Shown here: in pieces, positions 24,032 through 64,000 of the stretch
How positions within the stretch are numbered: the first letter of the stretch is position 1
How the letters are laid out: every line of letters starts with the position of its first letter
Source: Sulfobacillus acidophilus
GTDB taxonomy: Bacteria; Bacillota; Sulfobacillia; Sulfobacillales; Sulfobacillaceae
NCBI GenBank assembly: GCA_003023745.1
Contig: PXYV01000004.1
Coordinates: forward strand, 46,213 to 110,212
DNA length: 64,000 bases
Direction of reading: 5' to 3'
The notes under the pieces: model-generated
What the model was told of the DNA's origin: nothing
Database searches by the model: none
Seen by the model: only the letters and a program-made list of their open reading frames with translations
Translations under genes and position numbers: made by a program

Positions 24032-24307
24032 GTTAGCCTCCTGTGACGTATCATCGTCTTTTCATGTTACCAATCGATATCGGCAAAGGAAAGAAAGCAG
24101 CTGAGACCTGTTCTCCCCCCTTTAAGCAATCCCCAAAGTCGCGAAGAAACAGCCGATGGACTTTACCAGACCTCGACCCCTTACCTAAACAGACGCCACA
24201 ACCGTCGTGGTGATCGATAGATTCTTCAACGTCACCTCGGCACGTTCCTTTTTTTGCTACGGGCGGTTATAATAGAAATAGGTTATCCAGAATGGGAGGT
24301 CAATCAC

Positions 24308-24487
24308 ATGCGGACTACAAAGAAGCCGCCGGTCGAGGTGAAAGTACTCACGGGTACTGACGCGGAAGCCGTGCGAGAGCAACGGTTTCAGGTTGCACGT
24401 GCACGCCTCGCTACCCGCATTCAAGAAGCCAATCTTTCGGAAGAGGAAATCATAGCCGAGGTTCGGGCTTTCCGCGCAGGAAAGTGA
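24308..24487 (+). CDS. small antitoxin-like protein paired with a PIN toxin
   Basis: A 59-aa charged protein starting MRTTKKPPVEVKVLTGTDAE with a predicted helical C-terminal half (LATRIQEANLSEEEIIAEVR). The ATG at 24308 follows GGGAGGTCAATCAC; the track ORF is 18 residues too long. Its stop overlaps the GTG start of the PIN-domain gene by 4 bp, as in VapBC-type modules. The family of the antitoxin is not recognised; it is judged by position, size and overlap. Confidence 0.72.
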   Translation: MRTTKKPPVEVKVLTGTDAEAVREQRFQVARARLATRIQEANLSEEEIIAEVRAFRAGK

Positions 24488-24957
24488 AAATCGTCGTTGA
24501 TACGAATGTTCTGCTCTCCTCGTTGCTCAGTTCTCCAACCAGCACGCTAAACCGTCTACTGGACCAGATTCGCACATCGCATACCCTCGTCCTGTCGCTG
24601 GCTATGGCCGTGGAGCTGGGAGCCGTTATTGTTCGCCCGAAATTCACACGCCTCGGTACCGAAAAGGAGCGCGTGACGATGGCCCAGTCGTTGCTGAGCG
24701 CGCCGCATATTATGGCTATCGTTCCCACTTTCACGATTGTTCATCCTGATTTGCCTGACGTGGACGATAATCGTCTTTTAGAAGTCGCCGTAGCTGCCGA
24801 TGCCGACATCATCATCACCGATGACAAGCAATTATTGGCGCTCACCGCGATTCGTCGCCCCCATGCGATAGAGCCGGAGCCCGAATCCTTGCTAGCGACC
24901 AAAACATTGATTTTAAGTCCCTACGATGCCCTCGATTATTTGCAATCCCTGCCGTAA
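24484..24957 (+). CDS. PIN-domain protein, probable toxin RNase
   Basis: The 157-aa protein begins MKIVVDTNVLLSSLLSS, the first strand of a PIN domain with its conserved Asp, has a Glu in LAMAVELGAVI, and ends with PDVDDNRLLEVAVAADADIIITDDKQLLAL, supplying the further acidic residues of the active site. PIN proteins of this type cut RNA. It starts at a GTG overlapping the small upstream gene. The subgroup resembles putative toxin PIN_3/COG1569 proteins. Confidence 0.85.
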   Translation: MKIVVDTNVLLSSLLSSPTSTLNRLLDQIRTSHTLVLSLAMAVELGAVIVRPKFTRLGTEKERVTMAQSLLSAPHIMAIVPTFTIVHPDLPDVDDNRLLEVAVAADADIIITDDKQLLALTAIRRPHAIEPEPESLLATKTLILSPYDALDYLQSLP

Positions 24958-24960
24958 GCT

Positions 24961-25316
24961 TTAAGTTATCGCGTAGGTCCTGACTACGGCCAACGTTTTT
25001 GTGCCTACCCAGACGCACCGACGAACGTGGTGATTAGCCCCACGCGGCTGGGCAAGTCCTCGCTCGTGTATCTCCCTTTGCTGCTCGCCGTCCCTGAGGT
25101 CCCACACCGGGAGCGTCCGCTACTGGTCATCGCCGACCCGAAGCATGAACTCTTGGCGCTTACTGGCACCCGCCTGAAAACGGCGGGTTATCAAGTGCAT
25201 CCGATTACGTTCGATGACACCAGCTTAGCCGACCGCTGGAACCAGCTTAAAGGCATTACCGATGATCAAGGGCAGGTCAACCACCAGCCCCTTTTGGGAA
25301 CTGGTAGATGCCACGA
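24961..25316 (+). pseudogene. relic of a VirD4/TraG-type conjugation coupling protein
   Basis: An open frame without a start codon contains APTNVVISPTRLGKSSLVYL (Walker A-like) followed by RPLLVIADPKHELLAL (second strand) and FDDTSLADRWNQL, the order seen in T4SS coupling ATPases (TraG/VirD4). Both ends are missing: the 5' end vanishes near 24960 and the 3' end is cut by the IS1595-type left end at 25317. The A of the Walker motif GPTRSGKS is altered (Leu for Ser). It shows that a conjugative element once sat here. Confidence 0.6.
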
Positions 25317-25342
25317 CATACATCCCAAGATGAGTCAGGTTA
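25317..25342. repeat. left terminal inverted repeat of the IS1595-type element
   Basis: CATACATCCCAAGATGAGTC followed by AGGTTA; pairs with 31476-31501 with a single mismatch. Confidence 0.85.
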
Positions 25343-25403
25343 ACGTTCTCCAGTGGAGGCAATGCGGTAGAAATGAGGAAACTCAGGGGGAGGCAGGCGG
25401 CCA

Positions 25404-25716
25404 TGACACTCCTTGAGTAACAAGACCGGTTTGGCACAGAGGACGCGTGTCGGGAGTACCTGTTTCGCCAACGCTGGCCGGAGGAATTCCGCTGTCCCGC
25501 CTGCGAAGGTAACGAGTATTGGACGATTCAGCGGTCCGGGCGGACCGCGCCCCTGTACGAATGCCCAGCCTGCAGGCAGCAGGTATCCGTGACTGCGGGC
25601 ACGATCTTTCACCGCACCTCAGTCCCGCTACGCGTGTGGTTTCTTGCCATCTTTCTGATGGCTGTCGACAAAGGGGGAAATCGGCGCTGGCCTTAAGCCG
25701 CGAACTGGGGTTGCGA
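25404..25716 (+). pseudogene. IS1595-family transposase, N-terminal part
   Basis: The reading frame gives MTLLE-stop-QDRFGTEDACREYLFRQ, a zinc ribbon (FRCPACEGN ... YECPACRQQ) and SVTAGTIFHRTSVPLRVWFL, the classic N-terminus of IS1595 transposases. It has an in-frame stop at codon 6, where the copy at 63943 has Trp, and a one-base frameshift after VDKGG. In the corrected frame it continues SALALSRELGLR, exactly where the C-terminal piece at 30676 resumes. It is not functional as it stands. Confidence 0.85.
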
Positions 25717-25971
25717 CTCAACTTCCGCATCTCACTCGGCGCCACCGCGACGATTTTTTTCGGGACCCCGGCGCTACCCGGACGGCTCAAACCGCACGGA
25801 CGCGCCCACGCCGAGGGCGTCTAGAATGCGCACGGCATGCGCGGGGACCGCACCCCACTGGTACCACAGGGCCTCCGACGTGCTCTTGCACAGGAGCCAC
25901 AGGGGACGCAGGGCATCCAAAATGACCGTTTCGGAGGGTGCCGCGTGGCGGCGTCTCGGGGTTCGTCGCCG

Positions 25972-26901
25972 TTATGCCCGAGACACCACCACGGTCAGGA
26001 CCACAAAATGCGTCGTGCTTGTCGCTAAATCCAGATAGTAGGTACCAGGGCGGGAAAATCCCGGATAGGTCAAACCCAAAATTGTGTCCGCCGCGAAGAT
26101 GCTCAGGGGGTCGGCATCCCCCCGCGTGGGAAACGGGCCGTACATGGCGAGCGTGCCGTGTTCCACGGCATGCAAGGCATCCACGGTATCGGGCCGCATG
26201 GCAATCGGCTGGCCGACCTTGAGGTGAATCACGGGGCTTCCGAGAATGGTGGGCGTCGGCTGGCCCGGATACAGGTAGACCGGGATGACATGGGCCCCGG
26301 GCGGAATCGTCTCCAGCAAGCCTTCGTGCTGAGCGATGAGCGCTGGCCCCCGCCAGGTGAACTGTTCGGCAAACGAGGAGAAGATTTCGCGAAACGATTG
26401 CGATCCGCCGGTAACGTACCCGGAATAGCCCGTGACGGTATAGGCGAGCGTCACTTTCGTCGGCGACACCACGAAGTTGAGAAACATCGTCTCGGCTGCC
26501 GCATTGCCGCCGGTGCTAACGGGCAAGATGACCGCGCCCTCATGGCCCGCCGGGTTCATGCGGACTAACGGCTTCGACGCGAGAGGCAAGGCTGACCAGC
26601 GCCGTACTGTCACGGCCTGCCAACCGGTCTCACGATGCTGCACGAAGACTACCCAGAGACCCGGCGGGTAGGAGCCGCCTTTCTGTTGAGCCCACAGTAC
26701 CAGGGTGGCGAGCGCGGGAAGGTATTCCTTCCCGAGGAGGCGCGTGTTGGTGGGAACAAAGGGGGCCACGCTGCGAGGCGGAGCCAAGGGGGCCGCATGA
26801 GCCGCAGGCGCCACAAGGCCCAACACGGCCGACAAGAACACTCCGATTCCGAGCATCAGGGCCCACAGCCGACGTCCGCCCGAGAACCATCGTCGGCGCA
26901 T
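25972..26901 (-). CDS. secreted protein of unknown function
   Basis: A 309-aa protein with a strong signal peptide: RRR start, hydrophobic core LWALMLGIGVFLSAVLGLVA and AHA-AP cleavage site at about residue 36. The rest is rich in Pro, Gly, Thr and beta-prone segments and ends TYYLDLATSTTHFVVLTVVV. No catalytic motif is recognised; no Cys is seen in the mature part. The gene has a fair AGGAGGAAT ribosome-binding site at its start. It lies alone on the minus strand within the insertion, so it is likely cargo. Confidence 0.65.
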   Translation of the reverse strand: MRRRWFSGGRRLWALMLGIGVFLSAVLGLVAPAAHAAPLAPPRSVAPFVPTNTRLLGKEYLPALATLVLWAQQKGGSYPPGLWVVFVQHRETGWQAVTVRRWSALPLASKPLVRMNPAGHEGAVILPVSTGGNAAAETMFLNFVVSPTKVTLAYTVTGYSGYVTGGSQSFREIFSSFAEQFTWRGPALIAQHEGLLETIPPGAHVIPVYLYPGQPTPTILGSPVIHLKVGQPIAMRPDTVDALHAVEHGTLAMYGPFPTRGDADPLSIFAADTILGLTYPGFSRPGTYYLDLATSTTHFVVLTVVVSRA

Positions 26902-27259
26902 AGAGATTCCTCCTTCTGTTTAGCGTTTCGGACGTTTCGATCATACCCCTGCGCTACTGCCAAGGGCAATTGAAATTCCCCCAAAAAGACAATTTGAAAA
27001 TCCTCAAAAACGTTCGCTGACATTTCGCATAAACGCCAGCTGAATTTGGCTCTTCCGCACTTTTGCTGAACGTCAGATAGAGGTAGGTTGCGAATCTTAT
27101 GGGTCTCCGTCGGGTGTTGTCGAATCTCGGGCCAACATCGCGTGGCGGATAACGGAGCGTCACTTTGGGACGGGGCGACCTACGAACCCGGGGACGTTGC
27201 CAGGATGAAGTAGAGTCCTGTCGCGACGACTGCAGTGTAGGCGCTCGTGGCAGCACGGC
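26902..27259. other. intergenic region, lower GC
   Basis: About 360 bp without a gene. The part at 26960-27070 is A/T-richer than its surroundings and holds repeated short motifs such as GAAATT, AAAATCCTCAAAA and ACGTTC, which could be the end of a decayed IS; no transposase remains. Confidence 0.35.
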
Positions 27260-27970
27260 TCACACCGTGGTCCCCCGCGCGATGCCGTCCAATACCGACG
27301 CCAGCCGATCGGGCTGGGTGGCGTGAATGTTATGATCCCCCGGCACCGTCACCACCCGCCAGTCTCGGACGCGCACCGCCTGCTCGGTTCGGAAGACTGC
27401 GGCAGACCGCGGGTTGTTCTCCCGATCCGTATACGCAATGTATGTGCGCGGCAACGCTGCGGCCTGGGGATTCGCCAAGACCACCGAATCGCGCAGGGGG
27501 CGTATCAACGCCGGCCCATAGCGACGGTCGGCAGTGATTAAGTTGGGGGACACGGGTAACTGCCAGCCATCCGGACCCAACGCCTGTTCCGTCTGTGCGA
27601 CAAATGCCGGATCATACAGATCGAGCATGTACTGCCCACTAGCCAGCGGAATGACTGCGTCCACATAGACCAGATGGGCGATGCGATCCGCCATCTGCTC
27701 GGCCGCCGCGGTAATCACCCAGCCCCCGTAGCTGTGGCCCACCAGCCACACCGAATCCATGCGTTCATACTGAACCACGGCCATCACATCTTGCACGTGC
27801 CTCTCCAACGTGATCGCGGGAGACGCTAAATGCCGGCGGTCGCCGTACCCAGTCAGGGTCACCGGAAATGCGCGATGACCCTGCTGTCGCAACCGATCGG
27901 CCACCGGCGTCCACGCCCAGGCGCCGTCGCCTGCCCCATGCACCATCACAAATGTCGCCATGTCCTTCAC
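27260..27970 (-). CDS. alpha/beta hydrolase
   Basis: The 236-aa protein has the oxyanion-region FVMVHGAGDGAWAWTPVADR, the nucleophile elbow VGHSYGGWVI (Ser about residue 83) and a C-terminal GDHNIHATQPDRLASVL with the catalytic His. The acid is likely the Asp in the strand before it or YVDAVIP. It resembles small esterases of the salicylate-binding-protein/MES type (AB_hydrolase_6/12). Substrate unknown. The start could be either of two Met codons (residues 1 or 4). Confidence 0.85.
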   Translation of the reverse strand: MKDMATFVMVHGAGDGAWAWTPVADRLRQQGHRAFPVTLTGYGDRRHLASPAITLERHVQDVMAVVQYERMDSVWLVGHSYGGWVITAAAEQMADRIAHLVYVDAVIPLASGQYMLDLYDPAFVAQTEQALGPDGWQLPVSPNLITADRRYGPALIRPLRDSVVLANPQAAALPRTYIAYTDRENNPRSAAVFRTEQAVRVRDWRVVTVPGDHNIHATQPDRLASVLDGIARGTTV

Positions 27971-29094
27971 GCCTCCGTGTCCAAGACAGATCCCGCCGCC
28001 CCCGCAGGGTTTTCTTCGGGCCGCCTATTTCTCTTGAAAGGTCCCGTCTGTTCTCTGAACCCCGTCACTCCCCGGGTGCTTCGCCAGGGTCGGCTGAATT
28101 TCCTACCCAGCGCCAAACTTCCGTGATGATGCCGCCACCCGCTGGGTCGCGGCGATAGGCCATGCTCCATCCTCCAGGGCCGGAAGATGGGCACGATCCG
28201 AACCAGACCATCAGAGCCTCCCGCGAAATCCAACCCGGCACCATCCACCGGACCGTTCCCCGCGCATTCCTGCATGCATTTTGTCTCAACTGTTGGGTCA
28301 TACGGTGATCACCGACCCAAAACTTCGCCAGGTATCGGGGCAAATCCTGCTTCAAGCGGACCGCTCAACGACGCGACAGTGATCGGGAGCATCGTGCCTC
28401 ACGCAAATCCCTGTATACGCCACCGTTACAGGCAAATTCCACGAAATCACACCGATCAGAACATTCTCAATGGTGCCGCTCTACCCGTTGATGAGCCGAC
28501 ATATAATCAGCCTCCATCACCAATCTAATATTCGGGCCGCTACGGAGCTTTCTGGCGCGGAAAAGAGGCTGTTTAGGAATTCCGACCGATCCCTCGGGAT
28601 GCTGGCCAACCTGCAAGACCCCATGACCCGACCCGTGGTTCCGACCACGAGCGGATCACATTCCCTTGGGTGCGCTCATCCATCAGAGGGTGCGCGGAGA
28701 CGACCGGCAACCTCGCCTCTCGCCGGGAGAACGCATCCTCGTGCGGGTGTTGGACGAATAGCCCGTCAGCGCCAAATGGCACCGCACGTCCAGACCGCGT
28801 CGTGCTAGCCGACCAGCGGAAAGTGGGTTAACATACGAATTTCGAAGTCAATCCACCAAAATTTCCGCCCCCTATTTCGGTCAATCTCCCCGTTGGCTTG
28901 GACGCTGTCTTTCGGTGTCATCATACGCCGGAAGGCGAGGAGTTTGTGCAGTTAAACGGGACGACGGTGGATACGGTGATAACACGAAAAAATTGCCGAA
29001 GGGCGAAGCCTGCCGTATGATGGAATCTAGTCAGTTTGTCGAATGCGCGCACTTTCCGCATCATCCGGTGCGATACAAGGAGGGCAATCCATCC
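27971..29094. other. region with no confident gene
   Basis: About 1.1 kb between the hydrolase and the endonuclease. Several overlapping open frames exist (for example 28065-28355 minus and 28470-28808 plus) but none has recognisable domains, and frames break repeatedly as in decayed DNA. A stretch reading RADHIPLGALIHQRVRGDD on the plus strand near 28650 looks like a former coding fragment. Confidence 0.35.
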
Positions 29095-30123
29095 ATGAAC
29101 ACACAGGAGAAAGGCGCCCGCTTAGAGCAGCAAGTGGCGGCGTATTTCCGATTGAACGGCTATGAGGTCGAGCAGAATGTCAAAATCGAGGGAAAGTCGG
29201 GCGGCATTCATGAAATCGATGTGTGGGCTCGTAAGTGGGACGGCATCACGGATTTTATCCTGGCCGTCGAATGCAAAGCCTGGGCGACGCCCATTGAGAA
29301 AGATGTCGTATCGAAGCTATCCATGGTGCTTGCGGACACGGGGATCAACAAGGGCATCATTGTGGCGTTACACGGTTGGCGTAGCGGCGCGGAAACCGCT
29401 GCTCGACAGGAGAAGATCGAATTATGGGGTCCCGCCGAGCTAACCGAACATTTGGGATCCGTGATGCTGGCCGATTTGAATGCGGCATCAACGAATCGAT
29501 TGGTGGTCGCCGCACCCTACCCAGTCCGGGTGGCGGAGCAAGACTTGCGCAAAACCTTGGACACGCAGTCGCGCGGCCTCTTTGGCACCGGTCGCGAGGA
29601 CCGGGTCTGGGAGCAACTGGCGTGGGTGCCGTTTCATCAACTGGAACTGCATTTGTCGACCGTCGTGCGGGAATTTTTGCGGCGACCGACGACGAAGGTT
29701 ACGACCGCATGGGCACTCTACAATGCGTTGGACAATCGCCATTATTTTAGCACGACCGAGAGCATGGTCCCCGCAGAGATTCAGGTTCCCGTAGCCATTT
29801 CCCCGAAAACCACAGCAAAGCCGATTGGTGCATCACTGGTCAACACGCTCAAAAAATATCAGGAAGTTACTCGGGAATCCAGCAAAGCCCGGTATCGCAC
29901 CCAATTACAAACCCTCGGAGTTCCGGATACCGTGGTCAGCTTGACCGTCGAGCACGCAACGATTGTCCATCTTCCGTTTTGGGTCGGCCTGTTCCACCGT
30001 CGGGGTACCGAACGGTTGGTCGCTATTAACGCCCACACGGGCACGGTGGACGGGAGTATAAGTCAAGCCTTGACGAAAAGCATGGCCTTCGTGCGTGCGG
30101 CGATGGAACCCGACGACCACTAA
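29095..30123 (+). CDS. Mrr-like restriction endonuclease domain protein, solitary
   Basis: The 342-aa product from the ATG at 29095 (after AAGGAGGGCAATCC) begins EKGARLEQQVAAYFRLNGYE and continues with IHEIDVWARKWDGITDFILAVECKAW, giving the D-x(n)-ExK catalytic motif of Mrr_cat/PD-(D/E)XK nucleases. A conserved helix with GINKGIIVALHGWRSGAETA follows. The C-terminal 200 residues (VREFLRRPTTKVTTAWALYN onward) are unassigned. Mrr enzymes cut modified or foreign DNA. No methyltransferase or specificity gene is next to it, so it may be a lone type IV-like nuclease. Confidence 0.78.
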   Translation: MNTQEKGARLEQQVAAYFRLNGYEVEQNVKIEGKSGGIHEIDVWARKWDGITDFILAVECKAWATPIEKDVVSKLSMVLADTGINKGIIVALHGWRSGAETAARQEKIELWGPAELTEHLGSVMLADLNAASTNRLVVAAPYPVRVAEQDLRKTLDTQSRGLFGTGREDRVWEQLAWVPFHQLELHLSTVVREFLRRPTTKVTTAWALYNALDNRHYFSTTESMVPAEIQVPVAISPKTTAKPIGASLVNTLKKYQEVTRESSKARYRTQLQTLGVPDTVVSLTVEHATIVHLPFWVGLFHRRGTERLVAINAHTGTVDGSISQALTKSMAFVRAAMEPDDH

Positions 30124-30675
30124 ACGGGAAGCGTGCCGCGCAGTGGCGCTCGGGTCGTGAGGCGACGGGTCGCCGCCCGTTTGGCTCCCATACACGGACA
30201 CCCCGTATGGGCAGTGTCGGTCGTCGGTTTTCGCCGGGCCCCGCACAAATGCCATTCCAGCCGACCGATGCGATGACGCCCCGTGGGTCAGCAAACGATT
30301 GGCGATGGCGACAGCAAGATTCGTCAATGTGATGACCATAAGTATTAGCGCGAACACCCGAACTCAATCGAAGCGGGACGTGGCACCCGTGAATCCCCGT
30401 TTAACCCATATGTTGTAGGTCCGCTTTATCGGTCACTGAGGTTCGGGAACTTGTTCTGTGTCCGTCATCTCCTTCCGATAGACCCGTTCATGGTGATCCA
30501 TCGGACGTCGCGGCCGCGTGGTCCCATTTCTGGCCGTCTGGACAATCGCTTCAAAAGTTAGCGCTTATGTTACCCATGCCCCTCACCGTCTTTACGGAAC
30601 CGCCTGTCCGCGTGGGCCCCTGCTAACATCCCCCGAAATAATCGGCGATTCCCACAATTTGGGTGCGATAGACGT
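30124..30675. other. region with no confident gene
   Basis: About 550 bp to the right edge of the insertion. A minus-strand frame ending RVYRKEMTDTEQVPEPQ (near 30440-30510) resembles a short C-terminus of a lost gene. Nothing else is recognised. Confidence 0.3.
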
Positions 30676-31259
30676 GTTGCGATATACTACGGCTCAGTTG
30701 TTGCATCACAAAATCCAGGCGGCGATGGCCGATCGTAATGCACCCTACCGGCTTCAGGGGATCGTGGAACTGGACGACGCGTATGTGGGCGGCGTGAGCC
30801 ACGGCACGGCGGGCCGCGGGACGAAACAGGATCCCGTGGTCGTCGGGGTCAGTCTGGATGGGCAGGGGCCCCCCGCAAAGCGTATTTCTCGAAATCGTGG
30901 CCTCGCTCCACAACGAGCACGTGTTGGCAGTGTTAGCGCGCCGGGTGGGGCAAGACGGTGTCTGGATGAGCGATGGAGCCGCCGCGGATGCGGCCGGAGC
31001 CAAAGCCCAGCATGCCGCGCACAAGGTCATCTTGAGCACCGATCCCGAGGCTCACACGGTCTTCCATTGGGTGAACACGGTCATCAGCCTCGTGAAAACC
31101 TTTGTCGACGGCACGCACCACGGGCGCGGCCGCGCTCGACGCCAACTCTATTGGGAAGAATTCACCTACCGCTTTAATCGCCGCCCCCTGGGGACGCGGA
31201 TTGCCGATCGCCTGCTCCCGGCCTGCCTCAGCAGCAACCCGCATCCGAATACGATCTAA
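30676..31259 (+). pseudogene. IS1595-family transposase, C-terminal part
   Basis: Starting in frame at LRYTTAQLLHHKIQAAMADR it continues YRLQGIVELDDAYVGG (first acidic residues of the ISXO2-like DDE domain). A one-base frameshift near 30860 moves to PQSVFLEIVASLHNEHVLAV, then VWMSDGAAADA and YWEEFTYRFNRRPLGTRIAD with the C-terminal Glu. The two pieces together would make a full IS1595 transposase but for the insertion, two frameshifts and one nonsense codon. Confidence 0.8.
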
Positions 31260-31475
31260 CGCGGGCAACTGTACGCTACGGTCGGTACACTTCCCCAGAT
31301 TACATCCTCCCAGCACCGACGGCTTTCGGGGCAGATTACGTTATGCCCGCACAGCTTATCCAATATGCTCGCGGTCGCCATCGTGTCACGCGGTGATACG
31401 GTTCCACGAAAACGCCTGCGAAATTTGTCCTAGTTTTCTTGTTCGAGAGATAGGCCTAGTGGAAGCCGTACCCTA

Positions 31476-31501
31476 TAACCTGACTCATCTAGGGATGTAT
31501 G
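31476..31501. repeat. right terminal inverted repeat of the IS1595-type element
   Basis: Reads TAACCTGACTCATCTAGGGA followed by TGTATG, the reverse complement of the left end with one mismatch. Confidence 0.85.
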
Positions 31502-63942: not shown

Positions 63943-64000
63943 GTGACGTTGATCCAATGGCAAGACCGATTCGGGACCGAGGAGGCTTGTCAAGATTACC
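63943..64000 (+). CDS. IS1595-family transposase, start only (window edge)
   Basis: GTG 63943 after GGGGAGGAATGGCAC opens MTLIQWQDRFGTEEACQDY, which matches the N-terminus of the decayed copy (MTLLE*QDRFGTEDACREYL) with a Trp where that copy has a stop. The rest lies outside the window. This copy may be intact. Confidence 0.78.
   Translation, partial: MTLIQWQDRFGTEEACQDY

Follow-up and report, generated by a model that had tools for sequence, protein, structure and literature searches.

This locus raises the question of what carried a 4.96-kb segment of DNA into the transposase gene of an IS1595-family insertion sequence (IS) in Sulfobacillus acidophilus. The window, that is the whole stretch analysed, comprises 64,000 nucleotides (contig PXYV01000004.1, positions 46,213 to 110,212), and positions below are counted from its first base. 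An earlier note on this DNA had recognised no transposase of the inserted segment and had left its mover unknown. We find that both outer ends of the insert are 3' termini of IS1634-family elements at the exact base, with the last transposase codons still readable, and that they are enclosed by a 6-bp duplication in a site that is empty in relatives. The mover is therefore of a known family, IS1634, rather than of an unknown class, and the locus is a set of nested, decayed ISs. As to how the two ends came to share one duplication, we lean towards the view that the insert is a decayed composite transposon formed by two inverted, non-identical IS1634-family elements. The features are collected in Table 1.

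The interrupted gene can be recognised on both sides of the insert. To the right, two reading frames match the NCBIfam model NF033547 (7.5e-12 and 3.3e-14) and there is a match to PF12762 (9.7e-13), and the left fragment aligns at 64% over 86 residues with an intact relative; by this homology the two fragments are parts of one IS1595 transposase, as had been proposed. Two uninterrupted copies are present in the same genome (C63:110251-111210, just past the end of the window, and C80:416-1210), and in a DNA search the match of both copies to the window ends at 25715 and picks up again at 30676. For an empty-site test the insert was removed, the flanks were joined with a single TTGCGA and the product was aligned to IS1595 relatives. 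The 15 loci aligned, 13 from other genomes and the two from this genome, were picked from matches in which both flanks of the site seemed to be present, some IS1595 matches being left out, and all 15 are free of gaps across the join for 24 bases on either side. The proposed interruption at a single point with a short target duplication is thereby borne out. The IS1595 family serves here only as the insertion target and as the family of the host element, which is itself a pseudogene: its transposase is broken independently of the insert by an early stop, at codon six of the frame that opens with the ATG at 25403, and by frame changes, relative to the intact relative, near 25680 and 30873. The last 40 bases of the window (63961-64000) match the start of an IS1595 gene at 77.5%, and the uninterrupted copy on C63 continues beyond them.

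The duplication had been read as 7 bp, GTTGCGA, at 25710-25716 and 30676-30682. These positions hold, but the duplicated sequence is 6 bp, TTGCGA, since G30676 belongs to the insert, as the last base of its right inverted repeat, and G25710 to the original IS1595 sequence. Within the insert TTGCGA otherwise occurs only at 26398, in the open reading frame (ORF) of a putative secreted protein, and at 27088, in a repeat.

At the left edge of the insert, base 25717, directly after TTGCGA, a minus-strand element of the IS1634 family has its 3' terminus, with the terminal repeat CTCAACTTCCGCA. On this strand the last 57 codons of the transposase (25777-25947) are followed by the stop and then by 57 bp up to the edge. 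A reading of the left edge as a plus-strand ORF was rejected, since the transposase tail lies on the minus strand. The 57-residue stub matched no NCBIfam model on its own and aligns at about 44-58% to its better relatives, several of which are the C-termini of open frames of 567-597 residues. The three full-length relatives that were scanned are NF033559 IS1634 (1.5e-65 to 9.9e-64; 216-222 bits, cut-off 100), and DUF4277 and DDE_Tnp_1 are present in the two of these that were also compared with Pfam. When 61 genomes were searched with the 6.2-kb locus, a 92% match beginning exactly at the edge (25716-25868) was found in genome G026. The aligned 3' tails of left-subfamily relatives place TGCGGAAGCTGAG, or a sequence very like it, at the end of the element, and three copies in genome G001 agree up to an end of this type and diverge beyond it, except for a common T. 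The 3' ends of four relatives other than those in Table 1 agree with the left outer repeat at 13-17/20 bases. In the left-subfamily copies L122 (1855 bp) and L134 the inverted repeats match at 15/20 and are bounded by exact 6-bp repeats, TCGCAT and TTAGAA respectively. The left element is thus assigned to IS1634 by its transposase, through the full-length relatives, and by a terminal repeat at the exact edge. The copy of this terminus in G026 (L140, C40:3491-3767) ceases to resemble the window after 153 bases; a further mobile element has probably interrupted it shortly before the contig ends.

At the right edge, base 30676, lies the 3' terminus of another IS1634-family element, distinct from the first and on the plus strand, with the terminal repeat CACGTCTATCGCACCC. 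Several IS1634-family copies align at 73-81% with the final 100 bases of the insert, the match ending at 30668, and the true ends of those copies lie 8 bases farther out. These ends were defined with L061, in the same genome, which has the inverted repeats CACGTATTCCGCACCTAAAT and CACCTTTTTCGCACCCAAAT and the target repeat TTCAAG, and with L132, which is arranged alike around ATTGAA; when L061 is excised with one copy of its repeat, the reading frame of the gene that it interrupts rejoins. Judged by the ends of L061 and L132, the right element has CACGTCTATCGCACCCAAAT as its terminal sequence and stops at 30676, immediately before the right TTGCGA. Its C-terminal part resembles in DNA copies that are NF033559, and its N-terminal part is, from 28589, 76-79% identical in DNA to L005 and L006; the N-terminal stub on its own matched no NCBIfam model. 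The right element, too, combines an IS1634-type transposase with a terminal inverted repeat at the exact edge. L061 itself lies in an IS1634 cluster (L133, G000:C102, 6600-11500), inside a minus-strand IS1634-like transposase gene, and is adjoined there by L062.

The length of the duplication agrees with this family, for which 5-6 bp is typical. Intact copies of both subfamilies seen at the insert edges make 6-bp duplications. Among 13 IS1634 copies inspected for target repeats, four have 6 bp together with matched inverted repeats (L061, L132, L122 and L134), one has 5 bp (L060) and eight have none that is convincing. The published family description gives a length of 1500-2000, ends of the form C-----YT and target repeats of 5-6 bp (PMC2266710). 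The left end in the window, CTCAACTT, conforms to that pattern, whereas the right end, CACGTCTA, deviates in having A instead of T at position 8. The full copies compared here are 1.82-1.86 kb with 6-bp repeats, as in the published range, and the unusual, very long repeats reported for IS1549 and IS1634 itself were not seen among them. ISGka5 of Geobacillus also made 6-bp repeats (PMC8024623).

A single duplication around two opposite IS1634 ends is most simply explained by joint movement of the two ends, the behaviour of a composite transposon. Two different IS1634-family elements, inverted and with their 3' ends outward, would have been cut at these outer ends and joined in a single event into the IS1595 target, duplicating TTGCGA. 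The DDE transposase acting may have come from either copy or in trans, and the genes for the putative secreted protein and a hydrolase would have been carried in. The left element was at some stage reduced to its last 57 codons, and the right one was split by an IS4-family element holding an Mrr-like nuclease. In support of a composite, the one target duplication encloses both elements, and the two IS copies flank other genes. Furthermore, the tentative right inner end is flanked by AAATTC and not by TTGCGA, so the right element seems not to have inserted independently. The left end also agrees at 13/20 bases with a 5' end of the right-hand subfamily, a level reached by 0.1% of random 20-mers from the locus against the same set of four, and this is in favour of compatible ends. 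There is a precedent in Tn6097 of Paracoccus ferrooxidans, in which two copies of ISPfe2, an IS1634-family element, are found with 6-bp repeats (PMC3281130). Tn6097 resembles the present insert in having oppositely oriented IS1634-family elements of about 1.85-1.88 kb around unrelated genes and a 6-bp duplication. Its copies are identical, convergent and complete, and Tn6097 was observed to move, whereas the copies in the window differ in subfamily, have their 3' ends outward and are both wrecked (PMC3281130).

Several observations weigh against a composite. The two subfamilies are distant, with about 28% amino-acid identity between representatives, and the outer inverted repeats in the window agree at only 11/20 bases, so it is not obvious that one transposase would act on both ends. 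Composites usually, though not of necessity, carry the same element at both flanks, and here they differ. The left element's inner 5' end was not found in the insert, where the best match is not above chance, and the right inner 5' end is marginal (P=0.025 for an equal match in 171 bp of resampled sequence). The search for the 4.96-kb unit elsewhere, which the earlier note had suggested, returned no second copy in 60 relatives or in 72,556 plasmid records. The cluster on C102, the sole other inverted cluster inspected, gave no sign of a common outer repeat. Finally, precise abutment exists without a composite, in a tandem pair in genome G006 with a 1-bp spacer. That a single transposase paired such mismatched ends, which have little in common beyond C.C...T..CGCA and belong to subfamilies whose transposases are only about 28% identical, is a tentative proposal that we hold to be rather less probable than its opposite. 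If it is true, elements of distant subfamilies can contribute one end each to a working transposon, and genes can be moved by ISs that happen to lie on either side of them as well as by paired identical copies; ends of this kind that had moved together would provide a natural test case for how strictly IS1634 transposases read end sequence. Otherwise the locus is another example of an IS nested in an IS in an IS-rich genome, the mismatched ends being its sole notable point.

The alternative that survives best is a stepwise origin, which we regard as unlikely though deserving serious attention. The left IS1634 element would have arrived first, generating TTGCGA; later the right one would have landed exactly at its far end, beside the right TTGCGA, and the middle would then have been filled by genes and ISs that erased the inner part of the first element. 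IS1634 copies can indeed sit end to end, as in the G006 pair, a direct tandem of the left subfamily (L123, G006:C51, reverse strand, ~1957), one IS1634 element lies within an IS1634-like gene on C102, and the interior of the insert is clearly a mosaic of several events. This account nevertheless requires a landing on one exact base. Had the right element used its own target there, TTGCGA would be expected before its inner end, where AAATTC is found, the inner end being marginally identified; abutment likewise predicts the 5' repeat of the first element just left of the second, and none above chance was found in the insert. It is improbable that a single IS1634 element inserted and later had its far end replaced by that of another subfamily through recombination or gene conversion: both ends are of the same family and the duplication has the right length, yet similarity is too low for homologous exchange (the outer repeats and proteins agreeing only to the extent given above), and the right end conforms cleanly to its subfamily (16-17/20) and is no chimera. 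A short repeat arising by chance, with edges made by separate insertions and a deletion, would suit so heavily decayed a locus and is very improbable, since both edges fall at exact IS1634 termini and IS1595 is continuous with a 6-bp overlap in 15/15 aligned relatives.

Table 1. Positions in the window of the host element, the insert and its parts.
Feature	Position	Strand	Remarks
Whole IS1595 element, including inverted repeats	25317-31501		
IS1595 left part, N-terminal portion of transposase pseudogene	25317..25716	+	inverted repeat 25317-25342
Target duplication TTGCGA, left copy	25711..25716		6 bp
Left IS1634-family element, outer inverted repeat	25717..25736	-	18/20 to L122 3' end, 19/20 to L140
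Left IS1634-family transposase, last 57 codons and stop	25774..25947	-	relatives in 26/61 genomes (E<=0.1, own genome counted)
309-aa ORF, signal-like N-terminal stretch	25972..26901	-	
Remnants of other repetitive elements	26958-27068 and 27049-27214		each with several sites in relatives
Alpha/beta hydrolase, 236 aa	27260..27970	-	82% identical 554-bp DNA copy on contig C96
Right IS1634-family element, tentative inner (5') inverted repeat	28440..28459	+	14/20 to that of L006; AAATTC on its left
Right IS1634-family transposase, N-terminal coding part	28513..28756	+	tblastn 7e-5 and 2e-7
IS4-family remnant, transposase gene start	28755..28833	-	
Mrr_cat endonuclease, 342 aa, between both IS4-remnant blocks	29095..30123	+	PF04471 2.5e-14
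IS4-family remnant, leader and terminal end	30452..30569	-	
Right IS1634-family element, last codons and 3' tail	30570..30656	+	73-81% DNA to L010, L012, L054, L056
Right IS1634-family element, outer inverted repeat	30657..30676	+	16-17/20 to three 3' ends of own subfamily
Target duplication TTGCGA, right copy	30677..30682		6 bp
IS1595 right part, C-terminal portion of transposase pseudogene	30677..31501	+	inverted repeat 31476-31501

The mosaic between the two edges consists of the putative secreted-protein gene, the hydrolase, IS scraps and an IS4 remnant with the Mrr-like nuclease. The IS4-family remnant splits the right IS1634 element at 28756/30570. A full-length relative of it, L158, is NF033592 IS4 (3.4e-37). 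In the copy on C52, the two blocks of the remnant are separated by 44 bases. The nuclease, which had been listed as cargo of the insert, is not simply so, as it lies inside this remnant. Among 33 other genomes, 8 contain long relatives of it, and the DNA that its relatives have in common with the window is confined to the gene; on these grounds, and because it sits between the IS4-remnant blocks, it was rejected as the mover. Eleven contigs of G000 (C4, C7, C13, C71, C74, C78, C84, C105, C108, C113 and C118) also have a terminal end of the IS4-family element at or close to their own ends, as expected of a repeated element, and this element probably breaks the assembly.

The 309-aa ORF matched no Pfam, NCBIfam or PADLOC family; it has no relative in the contigs of its own genome, and only weak partial matches were found elsewhere, in 2 of 60 relatives. 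Given this distribution it was rejected as a clue to the mover. The repeats at 26958-27214 may resemble IS21 ends, and the one at 27049-27214 is present in several relatives, such as L048. Outside the host element, a fragment of a VirD4-like conjugative coupling protein (25027-25289; NF045973, 1.2e-9; PF02534) adjoins the left end of IS1595. Farther left, at 24254-24957, a small ORF is followed by a PIN_3-domain protein in a layout like that of a toxin-antitoxin pair, which the two may form.

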